Assembly (NCBI GenBank): GCA_937888715.1 | Contig: CALARU010000053.1 | Span: 1 to 42,750 of the forward strand | Length of the DNA stretch: 42,750 bases | Origin: an uncultured Planctomycetaceae bacterium | GTDB taxonomy: Bacteria; Planctomycetota; Planctomycetia; Gemmatales; Gemmataceae | Direction: 5' to 3' | Shown here: one piece after another, positions 16,996 through 26,567 of the stretch | Layout: each line of letters begins with the position of its first letter | How positions within the stretch are numbered: position 1 is the stretch's first letter | Program-made: the position numbers and the translations under genes | Notes under the pieces: generated by a model | Seen by the model: the letters and a program-made list of their open reading frames with translations, nothing else | What the model was told of the DNA's origin: nothing | The model's database searches: none

Positions 16996-19512
16996 ATGCC
17001 TTCCGCCCAGAAGGCCGAGACCAAAGATACTTCCCCAGCTTGGTATTTCACACTCTGGAAAGTTCCATCGGTACCCGCAGCCTTGGCTATAACCCTAGGC
17101 TTCTTAATCGATATTGCATATCAACCTCCGTTGCTATTCATGATGGCGTTGGCGTTGGGCCTTCTTCTCGCTTGGTTAGTTTGCATCGTTGGGAAGAAGC
17201 TAAACCTTGCCCTGATGTATCTGCTGCTTTTCATTGTTTGTTTGGGCGCATTCAGGCACTTTATTGCTGCTCGTTTGGTTACCTCCGACGATGTCAGGCG
17301 CTCTTTGGGCGATTCGGTTTCTCTTTGCAAGTTTAAAGGTTATCTCCAAGAAGAACCAAGGCTATGGGTTGGTGAAACCAACAATCCATTGCGGACGGTT
17401 CCTGCTGCCAATCGAAGTTCCGCAATTCTTTATTTGCATGAGATGCAACAAAATGGCGTATGGAACCCGGTCAAAGGTAATTTAAGGATGGTGAGTAATG
17501 ATACCTTGGCAGAGTTTCATTTAGGGGATACGGTCGAAATAACAGGGCGGGCCAAGTTGATATCGGCTCCTACCAATCCAGGCGAATGGGACTACCGGAG
17601 TTTTCTAAATCAACAGGGTATTTATGGCGAAATCAGGATCAATGATTCTTCAGCGATTCGAATGGTTGAGGAAGGATCGTGGTTCAACTTTTCCTCTTTA
17701 TTGTGCTTCATCCGGGCGAGGGCAGCCAACCTTCTTGTCAGCAATCTGCCCACGCCTGAGGGCCCTCTTGCAGAGGCATTGCTTTTGGGCGATAGCCCTT
17801 TGTTGCACAACAGCGAATGGGATAAATTTAAAAATACCGGGGTGCTTCATGTGCTTGCGATCAGTGGGCAACACCTTGCAATATTAGGTGGAACTTTGGC
17901 ATGGTTGCTGCGTGCCTTCAGGTTCAAGCCCGCATCCATTGCATTCATGGTCACTCTTTTTCTTTTGGTTTATGCGCTGCTTACCGGGGGCAGGCCCTCT
18001 GCGATGCGTGCTGTCATCATGGTGGGATGCTTCAGTTTGGGAATTATCCTACGTAGGCCGGCGCCTGCAATTCATACTCTTACCGCTTCTTGGATCATTC
18101 TTGCGTTTGTTCAGCCTTGGGATTTATTCAGCCCCGGATGCACTCTTTCATTTCTTGCAACTGCTTGCCTAATCTGGGTGATTCCAAAGTTTTCGCAACA
18201 AGAAGAAAGCCCGCTCGAGCTTTTAACACATGAATCCAAACCTTTATGGCGCAGAATGCTTGCTGATTTTTTGAAGGCAACACGCGAACTCTTTTTTATC
18301 TCTGCCATTGTCTGGGTTTTTGTAACTCCCTTGGCAACTGCATTCACCCATGTGGTTTCACCCGTTGCACTTTTAATTGGCCCACCACTTATCATTCTTA
18401 CGACCCTTGCACTTTTAGCAGGATTCATTGGCATTGTTTTAGGAAGTTTTATCAGCCCGATTGCTGTGGTCGCAAGTTGGATTATTTTTCCATGCCTTTG
18501 GTTGTGTGGCAAACTTGTTGATCTGGCATTGCTGATCCCCATGGGCCATTTTTACCTTCCTGATCTGCCTTTCTGGTTGATACCGCTCGGGTATGTCAGT
18601 GTTTTTATTTGGCTGAATTGGCCTTTTCTTTTGCCTAAATATGCATGGTGCTGCGTTGCGATTCTTTGGGCTTATCTTTTCATCTTTCCCATTCGAATAC
18701 CGCCTAGAGATCTCTGTGTGACATTTTTGGCAGTGGGGCATGGCACCTGTGTCGTGATGGAAACTCCAGATGGAAAGGTGTTGGTGTATGATGCTGGGTC
18801 GATTTCGGGGCCTGAAGTTTCACGCAGGAAAATCGCACCATTCCTTTGGTCGAAGAAAATTACCACCATCGATAAGTTATTAATCTCTCATGCAGACCTT
18901 GATCATTTCAATGGTTTGCCTTTCCTGTTGCAAAGTTTCAATGTGCGATCGGTGGCAACAACCCCAAGCTTTTCGCAGAAACCCACGCCTGGTGTTGCCT
19001 TGGTCAACCAATTGCTTGGCAATCCCCGTGCGAATCTTGAATTGATCACCAAAGGTAAAAGCTGGAGTTCAGGCGGTGTTGATTTTGAAGTGCTTCACCC
19101 ACCTGAAGTTGGCCCCTCGGGAAATGAAAATACCCGAAGCATGGTTATAGAAGTTGGCTACAAGGGCTTTAAAATGCTTTTGACAGGCGACTTGCAAAGC
19201 CCCGGATTAGAAATGGTGCTGCAACTTCCACCTAGGGCTGTTGATGTGCTGATGGCGCCACACCATGGAAGCAAGAAATCGCTTCCCCAAGAATTTCTGC
19301 ATTGGTGTCAGCCTGCAACTCTGGTGATAGGCACGCAAGGGGATATTTATCCCTCGATACCATTGCCTGTAAACTCTTCCTCTAAATGGATGTCAACAAA
19401 GGAAGAGGGAGCAATAACTTTGCGTTTTCATAAGTCGGGAATTGCAATCGAGACATTCGTGGATTTGAAAAGAGAACCATGGCATGACAGGGGACTGCCA
19501 GGAATCCGCTAG
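16996..19512 (+). CDS. comEC: ComEC/Rec2 family DNA-uptake channel
   Basis: An 838-residue inner-membrane protein for uptake of single-stranded DNA. The N-terminus has transmembrane segments and a DUF4131-type domain. The central competence domain starts with the hallmark VLHVLAISGQHLAILGG (near residue 280) and has many membrane helices. The C-terminal metallo-beta-lactamase-like domain carries SHADLDHFNG (HxDxDH, near residue 630) and APHHGSKKS (near residue 755). All parts are present and the frame is intact, so it is probably functional. GGAG lies 7 nt before the ATG. A degraded copy of its 3' part occurs at 20914-21062. Confidence 0.95.
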   Translation: MPSAQKAETKDTSPAWYFTLWKVPSVPAALAITLGFLIDIAYQPPLLFMMALALGLLLAWLVCIVGKKLNLALMYLLLFIVCLGAFRHFIAARLVTSDDVRRSLGDSVSLCKFKGYLQEEPRLWVGETNNPLRTVPAANRSSAILYLHEMQQNGVWNPVKGNLRMVSNDTLAEFHLGDTVEITGRAKLISAPTNPGEWDYRSFLNQQGIYGEIRINDSSAIRMVEEGSWFNFSSLLCFIRARAANLLVSNLPTPEGPLAEALLLGDSPLLHNSEWDKFKNTGVLHVLAISGQHLAILGGTLAWLLRAFRFKPASIAFMVTLFLLVYALLTGGRPSAMRAVIMVGCFSLGIILRRPAPAIHTLTASWIILAFVQPWDLFSPGCTLSFLATACLIWVIPKFSQQEESPLELLTHESKPLWRRMLADFLKATRELFFISAIVWVFVTPLATAFTHVVSPVALLIGPPLIILTTLALLAGFIGIVLGSFISPIAVVASWIIFPCLWLCGKLVDLALLIPMGHFYLPDLPFWLIPLGYVSVFIWLNWPFLLPKYAWCCVAILWAYLFIFPIRIPPRDLCVTFLAVGHGTCVVMETPDGKVLVYDAGSISGPEVSRRKIAPFLWSKKITTIDKLLISHADLDHFNGLPFLLQSFNVRSVATTPSFSQKPTPGVALVNQLLGNPRANLELITKGKSWSSGGVDFEVLHPPEVGPSGNENTRSMVIEVGYKGFKMLLTGDLQSPGLEMVLQLPPRAVDVLMAPHHGSKKSLPQEFLHWCQPATLVIGTQGDIYPSIPLPVNSSSKWMSTKEEGAITLRFHKSGIAIETFVDLKREPWHDRGLPGIR

Positions 19513-20854: not shown

Positions 20855-21231
20855 GCTTACACCCGTATTCATCGCCTAAGGTGGTCATCATTGTGGGCAA
20901 CATAAGTTGGTGTTCACCAAAGGGAAAAGCTGGAGTTCAGGTGGTGTTGATTTTGAATTGCTTCACCCACCTGAAACTGCCCCCCTCTGGTAATGAAAAT
21001 ACCCGTAGCATGGTGATTGAAGTTGGTTACAAGGGATTCAAAATGCTGCTGACAGGCGACTTCCGGCTCCGTCGGCAGGGTGAAATCTCAAACCCGATCA
21101 AAGGTTCGAATCAGGATGGTGATAAAGAGTGAACAAACTCCCGATACGGCCTTAACTTAGTGTCTAAAAAACTTTGCTCAATCTGGCCGACGGTGGGATC
21201 ACGCCGCAGCATCTTCCTCTGGTCGATGGAC
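20855..21231. other. Intergenic scar region with comEC remnant
   Basis: Apart from the comEC-derived fragment listed separately, I see no gene here. Base composition changes within this stretch: the left part is like the host and the right part (from about 21130) becomes GC-rich, so it marks the left edge of the GC-rich block. Sequence from about 21130 to 21231 matches nothing I recognise. Confidence 0.5.
20914..21062 (+). pseudogene. Decayed fragment of comEC (metallo-beta-lactamase region)
   Basis: This 149-bp stretch is clearly homologous to 19046-19193 of the intact comEC, from TCACCAAAGG to GACAGGCGACTT. It carries scattered substitutions and a one-base net length difference that shifts the frame; the second half still reads NENTRSMVIEVGYKGFKMLL in one frame. 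There is no start, no partner motif and no full domain, so it is a remnant. It shows that this locus once had a second comEC copy or received a diverged comEC by recombination. Confidence 0.85.
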
Positions 21232-22524
21232 TCAATTTCGTTTCTTATACCGGTAGGCCCACACGACGCCGTTGTCGTTGCTGTCGCCGGCGACATGGCA
21301 GAAGTAGGCGTTCAACTCCCGATCGAAACAGGTGTTGGCGGCGAAGTGAAACTTGGGTCCGTCGGCCGGGAAAGGGAGCGGGTCCGCCCACGAGTTGGTT
21401 CGCGGGTCATAAGTGAAGACGCCGGGCGTTTTCCCTCGCATCTGAAGCACCACCACGAGGTCGAGGAGTGGGTCGTACTCGTAGTATGCGCCATTGGTAC
21501 TCATGGCCTCGGGGCCGTCCCCCTTGGGTTTCAGGTGGCTCCAGGTATTGCTCCCGATGTCGTAGGCCATGAGGCCCTCCCCCTTCGAACCGTCACCGTC
21601 GTTTCGGTAGATTCGATTCCGCTTGGAGTCGTAACAGCCGGGGCCGTCGTAGCCCTTGGGCGCTGGGCCTTTCGGCTTCGCATCGCTCCACTGGTTCTTG
21701 GCGGGATCGAAAATCGCGACGGTGTTGGAACCCACCGCGAAGAACTGCTTCTTTGAAGGGAGATAGTGGAACTGAGGAAAACCTCCTGCGCTCACGGCCA
21801 TCGAGTTGTTCGCCGTGGATCGCTCGAACTTGCCCGACGCCGCATCGTAGAACCACGGGGAGAAGTCTGCTTTCTTTTTGCCTTTCATCTGCTCTTCAAG
21901 CAGTTTCAACCCTTCGTCCATCAGTTTCTCGCCACCGAGGAAATATCTGGAAAGCTGATTACTCGACCAACTGATAAAGGCGAATTTCTTCCGGTCGGAA
22001 TCATACGCGAGATACCCCCAGGCGTGAACCAGCGTGTGGACCGGGATGGCCTGCCCGTCCTTGTCGCGCAACAACCCGTTATCGTCGATCAGGAATTCCT
22101 TGTCCTTGACGCGCTGCGTGAAGGTCTTCGTGTTCGTGCCGGGATGGAGGCACAGCCAGGCGTGGGCGTTAATGTCGTAGAACCACAAGTCGTCCATGCT
22201 GTGGCCATCGGGCTTGACATAGCCGTGAACGCCTTCGCCGAAGAGGAAGGCACCGCGCAGGTCTGGAGCGAGGATCAGGGCTTTGGCACCCCACGAACTG
22301 CCCCGTGCCTTGCCCCACTTCGGGTCCGCGGCGGGGGCGCCGAGATTCACCCACTGGTTGTCGCCCAGCGCCTTAATTTTGTCGAGATGCGGTCCGGGCT
22401 TGCTGGGCATTTCAGCCAGCGGCCCTTTTTTCGCCGTGTCTTGGCCGGATGCGGACCAAGCGACAATCAACATCGCAACAGCCGCCAAGAATGCCGCATG
22501 AAAAGTCCGGAAGTATTTCATCAT
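21232..22524 (-). CDS. Secreted Kelch-type beta-propeller protein
   Basis: A 430-residue protein with a signal peptide (about residues 1-27, ending WSASGQ). The body has repeated Kelch/galactose-oxidase-like blades: DLWFYDINAHAWLCL, SPWFYDAASGKFER, GLMAYDIGSNTWSHLKPKG, VFTYDPRTNSWADPLPFP. No copper or Cys-Tyr catalytic centre can be made out, so a binding role outside the cytoplasm is likelier than an enzyme role. A GAGGGA site precedes two consecutive ATG codons. It follows the larger Kelch gene by 43 nt. Its early segment (LGDNQWVNL) resembles the middle of the larger protein (LPANQWVQR), so the two are probably related. Confidence 0.85.
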   Translation of the reverse strand: MMKYFRTFHAAFLAAVAMLIVAWSASGQDTAKKGPLAEMPSKPGPHLDKIKALGDNQWVNLGAPAADPKWGKARGSSWGAKALILAPDLRGAFLFGEGVHGYVKPDGHSMDDLWFYDINAHAWLCLHPGTNTKTFTQRVKDKEFLIDDNGLLRDKDGQAIPVHTLVHAWGYLAYDSDRKKFAFISWSSNQLSRYFLGGEKLMDEGLKLLEEQMKGKKKADFSPWFYDAASGKFERSTANNSMAVSAGGFPQFHYLPSKKQFFAVGSNTVAIFDPAKNQWSDAKPKGPAPKGYDGPGCYDSKRNRIYRNDGDGSKGEGLMAYDIGSNTWSHLKPKGDGPEAMSTNGAYYEYDPLLDLVVVLQMRGKTPGVFTYDPRTNSWADPLPFPADGPKFHFAANTCFDRELNAYFCHVAGDSNDNGVVWAYRYKKRN

Positions 22525-22567
22525 TAGTCCCTCGGAAAAGGTGAAAATTGGGCCATTCGCTGCGCTA

Positions 22568-24844
22568 CTACTTTAGCTCCACCAGCTTTAAACTCTTGCT
22601 ATCCAACCGCAGCACATGGACGCGGCTATTCTGTCCCACGGCCCACACCAACTTCCGGTGCGGATCGTACATCAGGCCCATCGAGTTGTTGAATGCTCCC
22701 AATGCCTTGCCCACGGGGTCGTCACCGGCCAACTCCGCGCCGAACCAGGCATTCTTGCCGCAATCGTACAGCAGCCAGAGAAGCTTGCCGTTGAGGCTGG
22801 CCCGGGCACCCACCATCACCATGTCGAGTTCGGGCAGATAGATCGTCTCCCGCGACGGCAGCGCCGCCATCGCCTTGCCAGCAGCGTTAAGCTCTTTCGC
22901 CTTTCCGTTTTTGAAATCGTAACCCATCACCTCCCCTTTGTTCTTATCGACGCTACTGAAGAATAGGAGCCGATCGCGCTGGCTATCGTAGGCCATCCCG
23001 TGACAGTCGGGGCTTTGGGCCGGCAGCGTGCCCGTCAGTGGTAGTGCTTTCCAGATACGGCTCGCACCGTCGAGCCGCCAAAGTCCGGCGCCACCGCCGA
23101 CCTTGCTGGCCCAGAGTACGGCCCCCTCCGGCGTCGTGCAGACCGTGTCGGTATAAAAGTTCGGCCGGTGCGGACTGCGTGCCGTACTCCGTGACCACTT
23201 GCTCGCCTTTGGGTCGAAGAAGTAAGTGTATGCGTGCGGCACGAAGATCAGCGATTTCAGATGCGGATCGTACCCAGTGGATTTGTAGGTATGGCCGGTC
23301 ATCCACGGATTACCTTGGAAGCTCCATTCGCCGTTGACCTGGTCGTTGCTGTAGACATATTCCAGGGGCTGCTCGGGAGCGAAGGGGATCGAGTAGCGGT
23401 CGGTCTTGACATCGTACACCTGCGGCGCGGTGCCGCTGTAAGCCGAGTGGCCGCCGGAGAAGCGCACGATGAGATCGAGGTCGGTTGCAAAGACCGCCGA
23501 GCCCCAGTCCATGTTGGGCCGCGGCAGTTTCGGTGTCGGTCGCTGCACCCATTGATTCGCTGGCAAATCCTTGAGCTCAGCATCGACCTTCGCAGCATCG
23601 GCTGCCGGCATGCCTTGCTGGAACCAAGCCGGATCGTGCGGACCGGTGCGGCGAACCGTGGCACCTGCGGCGACACCCCACTTGGCTGCCCCGGCTTCGT
23701 TGGCTTGGCTCGCATCCACCGGGCAGATCCAGGTGCCATCGCCTAGAGCGACGACCGTGTCGCTATCGTCCACGGCAGCGCTGAGGAAGAAGTTGTGCCG
23801 ACTAGCCGGGGCATCCTTGCCCATCTCGAAACGCTTGACCAGTTCCCACTTATTGGTCGCGACATCGTAGGTCCACGCTTCCAGCGGCAGCGGCGCATAG
23901 AGACCCTCGCAGTAGCCGACCGGCGAGGCGTAGGTGTAACCGCCCAGCAGCAAGACTTTCTTCGCCTTGGGAAGCCAGAGCAGAGCATGGCCGCCACGCG
24001 GCGACGGGCTGCGCATCGGCTTCTTGTCCTCCCACTTCTGGGCGACCACATCGAAAGTCCAGGTGTCGGCAATGAGCTGGTCCAGCCGATCGCCACCGAA
24101 GAGAACGACCTTCTTGTTCACCGAGTCGTAGACTAGCCGCGCATTGGCCCGCTGAGGCGGTTGCTTGTCGAGTTTGAGTTGAGTCCAGGTGTTGGAGGAC
24201 GGAGTATAGGTCCAGGTGCCGGGGTCGCCGCGCTCGCTTTGCACATTGCCGCCGCCGAAAAGGACGAACCGCTGGTTGTGCCGATCGTAGCACATTGAAC
24301 TCCAGAGCAGGACGCCGCCCAGATCTTTCTGGGGATCGCTCTTGGGGGCCAGGTCGGTCCAAGTGCGCTCGGCGGGGTCGTAGCAAAAAGTACGGCCGCC
24401 TGCATAGAAAACAAAAGTCTTCGTGTCGGGATCGTAGTCGTATTTCTGGCCGAGAGAGAAGGTGCCGTAAACGGTCCAGTTCGGCCGGCCGTTGCCCTCG
24501 GCGTCCTTGAAGTGGAACCGTTCATCCTTCCAAGCCGGGGCCTGGCACGGCCCGAACTTCGGTCCCCAATCCTTGCCCTTGGGATAGGCGTTCTCCCACT
24601 GCCCGGCGTCCCGATCGAGCGCAAGCACATCGTAGGGCCGCGGTTTCTTGTACTCGCCCGAGTGGGTCCGGCCACCGAGAACCAAGAAACGCTTCAGGTC
24701 CGGCGAATAACCGAGCGGCACATCGAAGCGAGGTCCTTCAATGGTAGCTTTGTCCAGTTTGCTCCAGTGGTTCGGTTCTGCGCCCTGCGCGACATGGGCC
24801 AGGATGGCTATGAAGAAAAGGACTAACAGGTTGCGTACGCTCAT
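22568..24844 (-). CDS. Large secreted Kelch-repeat protein (two propeller halves)
   Basis: 758 residues from the ATG at 24844, which is followed directly by a signal peptide (MSVRNLLVLFFIAILAHVAQG). An upstream in-frame GTG at 24922 would bury the signal peptide. The first half has clear Kelch blades (RFVLFGGGN, KVVLFGGDR, KVLLLGGYTY with W-x-x-D/W-T patterns). The second half, from about residue 410, is a further propeller-like region ending in KLVWAVGQNSRVHVLRLD. A role in binding at the cell surface is likely; no catalytic motif is visible. The start overlaps the stop of a 49-codon ORF by ATGA. Confidence 0.85.
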   Translation of the reverse strand: MSVRNLLVLFFIAILAHVAQGAEPNHWSKLDKATIEGPRFDVPLGYSPDLKRFLVLGGRTHSGEYKKPRPYDVLALDRDAGQWENAYPKGKDWGPKFGPCQAPAWKDERFHFKDAEGNGRPNWTVYGTFSLGQKYDYDPDTKTFVFYAGGRTFCYDPAERTWTDLAPKSDPQKDLGGVLLWSSMCYDRHNQRFVLFGGGNVQSERGDPGTWTYTPSSNTWTQLKLDKQPPQRANARLVYDSVNKKVVLFGGDRLDQLIADTWTFDVVAQKWEDKKPMRSPSPRGGHALLWLPKAKKVLLLGGYTYASPVGYCEGLYAPLPLEAWTYDVATNKWELVKRFEMGKDAPASRHNFFLSAAVDDSDTVVALGDGTWICPVDASQANEAGAAKWGVAAGATVRRTGPHDPAWFQQGMPAADAAKVDAELKDLPANQWVQRPTPKLPRPNMDWGSAVFATDLDLIVRFSGGHSAYSGTAPQVYDVKTDRYSIPFAPEQPLEYVYSNDQVNGEWSFQGNPWMTGHTYKSTGYDPHLKSLIFVPHAYTYFFDPKASKWSRSTARSPHRPNFYTDTVCTTPEGAVLWASKVGGGAGLWRLDGASRIWKALPLTGTLPAQSPDCHGMAYDSQRDRLLFFSSVDKNKGEVMGYDFKNGKAKELNAAGKAMAALPSRETIYLPELDMVMVGARASLNGKLLWLLYDCGKNAWFGAELAGDDPVGKALGAFNNSMGLMYDPHRKLVWAVGQNSRVHVLRLDSKSLKLVELK

Positions 24845-24990
24845 GACAGTTTCTCTAAATGGGGCGGGCAAATATCGGTGCCGATCGGTGCCTTCGACAG
24901 TTCCTTGCTTCCAGCCGTACACACGATGCAGGCTGCGGTCGAGGGAGTCGCTTTGGTATCAAGGAAGAACTTTTGTTCTTCGGGGATCAT
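24841..24990 (-). CDS. Micro-ORF with CxxC motif, coupled to the Kelch gene
   Basis: A 49-codon ORF with an ATG at 24990 preceded by a purine-rich GGAGGTCGGGCGGGG. The stop overlaps the start of the large Kelch gene (ATGA), a classic coupling arrangement. The product has a CIVC pair at residues 21-24 and a third Cys at 41, followed by PPHLEKLS. There is no signal peptide or membrane segment, and I recognise no family. It might be a small redox or metal-binding protein, or a leader ORF that only couples translation. It lies 62 nt after the thioredoxin-like gene. Small size makes this call uncertain. Confidence 0.45.
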   Translation of the reverse strand: MIPEEQKFFLDTKATPSTAACIVCTAGSKELSKAPIGTDICPPHLEKLS

Positions 24991-25052
24991 ACCCCGCCCG
25001 ACCTCCAGCGTGCTCGGTTTTTTCTCCTTCGCCGCACTGGCGGGCCGTACTA

Positions 25053-26207
25053 CTACAGATACTGCGGGTTGCGGACAGCGTGGGGCAGCGTATGTGAGAG
25101 TTCTTCGCGCGGGTCGGCCAGCATGAAGCTCAGTGCCACGGGCGCAGTGGTGTCCTTCGGCAGTAATGTCAAGGCGCCTTCGAAGCCGTGCGCACCGCAA
25201 TTATTGCCTAGGCCTTTGATGACCAGATCGAAGCGGGTCACCTTGCCGTTCTTGGCTTCGACGAAACCGAGGGAGTCGGCGCGTTCGCCCTTGTCGGACC
25301 GCAAGTCGCCCGACAAGCGCCCTTCCACCAACTTCATGCCGTCGGTCTTCAGTTTGCCCGGCACGACATAACGCAGGTAGGACACCATGCGATTGCGCAG
25401 GCTGTCTGGGAAAGCTCCTTTGGCCAACGCTTCGGCTTCGTCTTTCCGCACCCAGAACCGATCAACGCCAAGCGCGTTCGAGAGGTGTTTGTCGTTGTCG
25501 GAACTCTTGGAGTTGAGCAGCTTTTCCGGTTCGAGGATTTTCCATGTCACATACAAGACCAGTCCGCCTTCGGGTGGTCGTTTCGTTTCATTCGCAGCGG
25601 CGCGGTCCGCGTCCATCTCGAAGACTGGGGCCGGTTCCTCTTTGAACTTTTCGTCGGATTGGAACTTGCTAAGCGCACCCTTGAGCATTTTCAGGTTCGG
25701 CTTGGCGTCGTACCCCCCGCCACCGCCAGCGAGGAGTTGTCCCCCGGCCGTGAAGGTACTCATGCCCTGGGTCGAGGCTGTACCTCCCAGCGGCTTGAGG
25801 AATTCGCGCTCCCTTTTTGTGGTATTCGAGTTATTTGCATTGTCGATGGCGAAGCACACGAAATGTTTCGTAAGCATCTCGACGACTTGGGGATCATTCA
25901 GGATGGCCTCACGGGCCAGCACGCCGTTGCCTCAGACGAAGCCGAGACAGTTGCCGGTGTTGACGACCATGAAGATCGGTTTCTTCTCCTTGGCGGCCTG
26001 CGCCCTCGCCTCGGGGAGGGTGTTCTTCCAGGGGATAGCCGCCCAGGGCTGGTTCTTGAGACTGAGCACTTTCTGCAGGCGGTCGAACTCGGCACGTGAC
26101 AACCCCGACTCGTCGCCCTGCACGGAGGCGGTCGAGAAGGCCAAGCTGGCAAGGCCCACGGCCAGAGCCAGGGCCAGGGCCGAAACGATTCGTTTTCGCG
26201 CAAGCAT
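25053..26207 (-). CDS. Thioredoxin-like secreted protein with in-frame TGA, candidate selenoprotein
   Basis: Read through one TGA (25932-25934, codon 92), this gene encodes 384 residues. An AGAAGGAG ribosome site precedes the ATG and residues 1-30 form a signal peptide. The KEKKPIFMVVNTGNC segment has the strand-then-Cys layout of a thioredoxin fold, giving C87-LGFV-U92. The frame then continues into REAILNDPQVVEMLTKHFV, which corresponds to the helix and strand after the redox site in planctomycete thioredoxin-like proteins, and stays open to a TAG at 25053. The TGA is the only interruption. A SECIS-like hairpin lies downstream. The alternative is a nonsense mutation that leaves a 91-residue stub (25932-26207) and a dead remainder (25053-25931). 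Confidence 0.65.
25904..25918 (-). promoter_or_regulatory. Candidate bacterial SECIS hairpin
   Basis: On the transcript, UGGCC-CGUGA-GGCCA forms a perfect 5-bp stem with a 5-nt loop. The loop begins 18 nt after the in-frame UGA and has G as its second base. The published bacterial SECIS model asks for a short stem, a loop 16-37 nt after UGA, and a G in the first two loop positions; this hairpin meets all three. In GC-rich coding DNA such hairpins also arise by chance. Confidence 0.5.
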
Positions 26208-26348
26208 GATTTCTCCTTCTTGAGGGTTTCAGAATCGGCCAGAGAACGCCGCACTACGACACGGTTCTCCTGCCCGGCCCGCTTAGTGAGCTACACATCA
26301 CGAAAAACCTGCATGCGGGTGCAGCGCATGGTTCGGCGCTACTTGACC

Positions 26349-26567
26349 TCACGCTTGGGGCGACTGATCGTCACTGTCCGGCGGCAATGGTGGGTCGTTA
26401 TGCGGATCAAGCGGACCGCCGTTCCAGATGTTGACGCCGAATAATCCCGCCACACCAAATAGCGCCAGCAAATAGCCAAAATACTGTGTTGGCACACGGT
26501 TGATTACCCAGCCTTCTAAACCCAGATAAACCAACCAGCAGGCGAAGCCATACAAAAAACTGTGCAC
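26349..26567 (-). CDS. Small membrane protein (hypothetical)
   Basis: A 72-residue ORF with a GTG start; AGGAGG lies about 12 nt upstream, which is a somewhat long spacing. Two hydrophobic segments (about residues 5-22 and 30-48) predict two membrane helices, followed by a Pro/Asp-rich tail (PLDPHNDPPLPPDSDD). I recognise no family. It lies at the right edge of the GC-rich block. The composition is protein-like, but the non-ATG start keeps confidence moderate. Confidence 0.45.
   Translation of the reverse strand: MHSFLYGFACWLVYLGLEGWVINRVPTQYFGYLLALFGVAGLFGVNIWNGGPLDPHNDPPLPPDSDDQSPQA

Follow-up and report, generated by a model that had tools for sequence, protein, structure and literature searches.

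A family of predicted thioredoxin-fold selenoproteins in planctomycete-type bacteria, with a covarying SECIS hairpin and a shifted candidate partner cysteine

Introduction

A gene of an uncultured Gemmataceae bacterium carries a TGA in the middle of an otherwise open reading frame, which raises the question of whether this codon ends a broken gene or encodes selenocysteine (Sec). The gene lies in a 42,750-nucleotide stretch, analyzed in full and called the window here. A sequence-only reading had proposed Sec insertion at codon 92 of a secreted thioredoxin-like protein. In this study, we examined the gene, its relatives in the class and phylum, the putative SECIS hairpin, the Sec machinery of the source genome, and a predicted structure of the product.

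Results

The reading frame is on the minus strand and runs from an ATG at 26207, with a Shine-Dalgarno-like AAGGAG ahead of it (26213–26218), to a TAG at 25053–25055. The TGA at 25932–25934 is its sole interruption. According to the sequence and the family alignment, the gene (25053–26207) encodes 384 residues including Sec92. The first reading had placed the TGA five residues past Cys87 (25947–25949) with 292 codons beyond it, and this was correct to the base; the surrounding residues are TGNCLGFV-U-GNGVLAREAIL. The closest relative, L016, is 54% identical overall, with 57% identity before the TGA and 53% after it, and the differences between the two genes are concentrated at third codon positions.

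When the protein was searched against 397 genomes of the class, 176 of them contained matches. Each of the best 41 matches contains exactly one in-frame TGA; together with its shared alignment column and the similar identity to L016 on both sides, this places the TGA far beyond chance. Many of the weaker matches have no stop and probably represent generic thioredoxin-like proteins. When a family profile was used on a sample of the phylum, exactly one TGA was present in 49 of the best 50 matches listed, and the exception begins past the Sec position, at a contig end. In the alignment of 74 members, the Sec column contains 58 TGA, 3 Cys, 6 Ser, 2 Asp, 1 Pro, and 4 gaps; these counts are not frequencies, because stop-free members were fetched on purpose for the alignment. 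The members with Ser, Asp, or Pro are divergent paralogues that were included for being stop-free. The homologues have TGA or Cys, rather than Trp or Arg, at the position of codon 92, an outcome that the first reading had named as support for Sec. The three Cys forms stand at separate places in the tree, which indicates independent replacement of Sec by Cys. One of them, from a Gemmatimonadaceae MAG, was the single locus found by a scan of named genomes with one pattern in which Cys codons replaced TGA, a design that could return Cys forms only. Searches of plasmid and phage collections with the window protein found no match.

The genome of the window has three more TGA-bearing paralogues: contig 173 carries one of them, and contig 242 carries the other two as a tandem. 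The tandem pair (L116, 4928–7794) has Cys directly before Sec (CU motif), forms a separate branch of the family, and is located downstream of a DUF4838 gene. At another locus (L020, 372–2580), the frame extends upstream to include a hydrolase-like N-terminal part, for a total of 735 amino acids, suggesting a domain fusion.

The putative SECIS hairpin is located at 25904–25918 (minus strand), with the stem UGGCC/GGCCA and the loop CGUGA. Counting UGA as positions 1–3, stem positions 17–21 pair with 27–31 around loop positions 22–26. The geometry described at the outset, with 18 nt between UGA and loop and G as the second loop base, was reproduced. The downstream regions of 37 sequences align on an invariant CCGUG, and among them the stem 16–21 with 27–32 is 89.7% paired. 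Two-sided changes occur in five of the six stem pairs, amounting to 25 such cells versus 5.5 ± 1.9 in shuffles (0 of 500 reached this value), and the signal is destroyed when the partner is slid by 1–3 bases. A covariance model trained on 30 relatives, with the clade of the window left out, ranked the hairpin first in the window (match 25899–25934, 26.4 bits, E 4.7e-5), the next-best site scoring 9.9 bits. In the whole genome it ranked third, behind two paralogues, and neither of two further weak matches is in a long open frame. An Rfam search of the hairpin region returned nothing relevant. The aligned sequences indicate that the hairpin is maintained by compensatory change.

The source genome, of which the window is contig 53, comprises 4.56 Mb in 414 contigs and is 99.6% complete. 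The first reading had called for a search for selA, selB, selC, and selD, and all four are present. The tRNA-Sec (selC) has a TCA (UCA) anticodon, and its score of 68.8 bits exceeds the cut-off of 47. On contig 287, selB and selA are adjacent, both above their cut-offs with scores of 405.5 and 542 bits. The selD gene (349.7 bits), on contig 312, has its own in-frame TGA in SCAG-U-AGK. At a threshold of E below 1e-8, 65 of the 397 genomes of the class have a TGA member. selA was found in 58 of these 65 genomes versus 157 of the 332 others (Fisher p 6e-11), a value that is only a guide because related genomes are not independent. Seven genomes with a TGA member have no detected selA; of these, selB scores over cut-off in four, and tRNA-Sec is present in another two. 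In G153, which is 88% complete and has a TGA member, no selA, selB, or tRNA-Sec was found, and this counts against the Sec reading. The Cys forms speak on both sides. The genome of one (G255, 99% complete) is without selA, selB over cut-off, and tRNA-Sec, which counts for Sec; G256 contains selB and tRNA-Sec, and selA occurs in the Gemmatimonadaceae MAG, so that two of the three Cys homologues are in genomes still with Sec genes, which we counted against it. At two loci in separate genomes (L117 and L109), the family gene adjoins selA and a gene for a pyridine-nucleotide oxidoreductase/SelD fusion.

An AlphaFold2 model was built with 24 family sequences (mean pLDDT 84, pTM 0.82). Residues 1–31 (26115–26207) consist of MLARKR and a hydrophobic run, a likely export signal that the model forms as a helix at residues 2–27; this hydrophobic N terminus suggests export of the product. 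Residues 51–189 (25641–26057) form a confidently modeled thioredoxin fold of the DsbD-gamma/AGR type, for which the nearest structure is 3f9u (Z 14.4, rmsd 2.6 across 125 residues), followed by AGR3 (Z 12.6), DsbH (Z 12.1), and DsbD-gamma (Z 10.7). In thioredoxins, the attacking cysteine sits at the start of the active-site helix. The model puts position 92 directly ahead of helix 93–102, in keeping with the original proposal of a thioredoxin-like fold with Sec where the redox residue is expected. The motif is C-x4-U in the window protein and mostly CxU or CU in the family, and is neither CxxC nor a Sec version of it (UxxC, CxxU). The C-terminal domain (residues 208–384, 25056–25586) gave a pLDDT of 85.5 when modeled alone, and a structure search with it returned no clear match (best Z 4.8). 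The near-invariant residues of the family are W60, P77, G85, G89, Sec92, R99, D249, W252, E257, and R273.

The gene is located on a high-GC island (21150–26550; GC 0.56–0.63 versus about 0.46 in the window), which holds, on one strand, the selenoprotein gene and two genes for Kelch-repeat proteins identified by Pfam (22568–24844 and 21232–22524, minus strand). GC3 is 0.75–0.76 across the selenoprotein gene and the two downstream Kelch genes, with 0.76 in each of the latter, versus 0.44–0.53 in five other genes of the window. Because GC3 is raised and the nearest relative of the gene belongs to another family of the class, the island was probably acquired horizontally. The locus of this relative is without Kelch neighbors. 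A degraded copy of the 3′ part of a ComEC-like gene (20911–21062, 88% identical over 152 bp to 19043–19193) directly adjoins the island. Between the selenoprotein gene and the first Kelch gene is an ORF for 49 residues that contains cysteines (24841–24990; TAACIVCTAG...DICPPH), whose stop overlaps the Kelch start (ATGA); no homologue of it was found among the fetched loci. The neighborhoods of 21 family loci contained no recurrent functional partner; protein kinases (5) and DUF1501 genes (4) were the commonest among 50 neighbors, and DUF1501, DUF1552, and PSD1 genes occur in and around family loci, gene families that suggest Planctomycetota.

Discussion

We propose that the gene very probably encodes an exported thioredoxin-fold selenoprotein. 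UGA codon 92 would be decoded as Sec by tRNA-Sec and SelB, guided by the hairpin with the conserved CCGUG apex just downstream of the UGA. The Sec reading, the central claim of the earlier work, is strongly supported by the machinery in the genome, the TGA column, the replacement by Cys, the covarying SECIS hairpin, the conservation on both sides of the TGA, and the co-occurrence with selA. In the model, the thioredoxin-fold domain resembles the DsbD reductase domain and the Sec would be at the start of the active-site helix. Outside the cytoplasm, the product most likely works as a thiol/selenol oxidoreductase or a peroxidase-like enzyme, and a role in binding a partner or substrate is probable for the C-terminal domain. 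Sec would attack the substrate, and a nearby Cys would resolve the intermediate. In most family members this Cys would be the one at –2, and in the window protein perhaps Cys87 at –5.

The position of the resolving cysteine is the part of this scheme with the strongest competitor. Among 56 Sec members in the tree, the Cys is at –2 in 49, at –1 in five, and at –5 in two, the window protein and L016, which form a 100/100 clade nested among –2 forms. In nearly all other members, the –5 position is Pro. These two proteins also share Cys118, where Pro is the commonest residue in the family. A degenerate C-x4-U site pattern run on 396 genomes of the class matched only a known relative, G114. The chances are evenly balanced that Sec92 is inserted but works by itself or together with an external thiol, Cys87 being either a chance cysteine or a partner of Cys118. 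In the Cys homologue L049, none of the positions –1, –2, and –5 is a Cys, which shows that the family can do without a close partner, and the presence of Cys118 in L016 as well offers Cys87 another possible partner. However, the predominance of Cys at –2 and –1 argues for a nearby partner, and both proteins without it share the new Cys at –5. A Cys87–Sec92 redox pair of the C-x4-U type is therefore plausible, and relocation of the resolving cysteine to –5 in these two proteins is a reasonable reading of the alignment. The fuller scenario is more tentative, possible but somewhat doubtful: the resolving Cys would have moved from –2 to –5 (Pro87 to Cys), with Cys118 shared, giving a Sec-centered C-x4-U redox relay within a family of exported selenoproteins that is multi-copy and largely confined to the phylum.

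It is very unlikely that the TGA is read as another amino acid, such as Trp, through reassignment or near-cognate readthrough. An open frame alone cannot separate Sec from such readings, but the replacement residue is Cys, not Trp or Arg, the genome has tRNA-Sec, selA, selB, and selD, the SECIS hairpin covaries, and family genes in related genomes themselves stop at TGA; L016, L021, and L029 end in this codon, so TGA has not simply been reassigned. A broken gene, whether by a nonsense mutation, a sequencing error, or division into two genes (a 91-residue fragment and the 289-amino-acid ORF from GTG 25922 that table-11 gene calling yields), is improbable in the extreme, since the same TGA stands in the same column in dozens of genomes, which excludes a sequencing error, and protein conservation continues across it.

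The protein was also compared with known families. The NCBIfam and Pfam databases contain no model that covers the family. Thioredoxin_7 (PF13899) gave 26.1 bits against a gathering cut-off of 27, and 2 of 24 family members match it at E 0.001. The Trx7/PDZ (seleno)protein model NF041199 also describes a Thioredoxin_7-like domain with Sec and gave 16.3 bits over residues 59–128, far below its cut-off of 300; it has a CxxU motif (PMC13188914 Table 1) in contrast to CxU or C-x4-U in the new family, and no PDZ match was found in the window protein. The VPGUxxT thioredoxin-like (seleno)protein type 2 model NF041383 gave 16.7 bits over residues 57–131, below its cut-off of 275, and the window protein is without the VPGUxxT motif. 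Thioredoxin-like selenoprotein Sec.1 and other families in PMC13188914 Table 1 share CxU with most members of the new family, but have other domain models (PF13192 for Sec.1), none of which matches the window protein. PMC13188914 (2026) tables 119 prokaryotic selenoprotein families and subfamilies; none is recognizable by the domain and motif of this family, and C-x4-U is unlisted. The initial impression that no described family has this arrangement therefore holds for NCBIfam, Pfam, and this table. A study of planctomycete genomes (PMC4807772) gives selenoprotein candidates in its supplement, where single members may have been noticed earlier.

The DsbD C-terminal (gamma) domain, DsbH, and AGR2/AGR3 share the thioredoxin-fold domain (Z 10 to 14, including 3f9u), but their identity to it is 14–20% and they are without the C-terminal domain. 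To our knowledge, they are not selenoproteins.

As judged from sequence comparison, this is a new family of a known kind, the thioredoxin-fold bacterial selenoproteins, and the product would be an exported selenol/thiol oxidoreductase. The family is large in the class and phylum of the window, many planctomycete-type bacteria carry members, and some genomes have several copies. The 119 prokaryotic selenoprotein families and subfamilies tabulated in 2026 are thereby extended by a widespread one. Its genes would be truncated or split by gene callers that use no Sec-aware model. The members with TGA, with Cys, and with the shifted partner cysteine form a natural series for testing what maintains Sec and by what route a resolving cysteine can change position.
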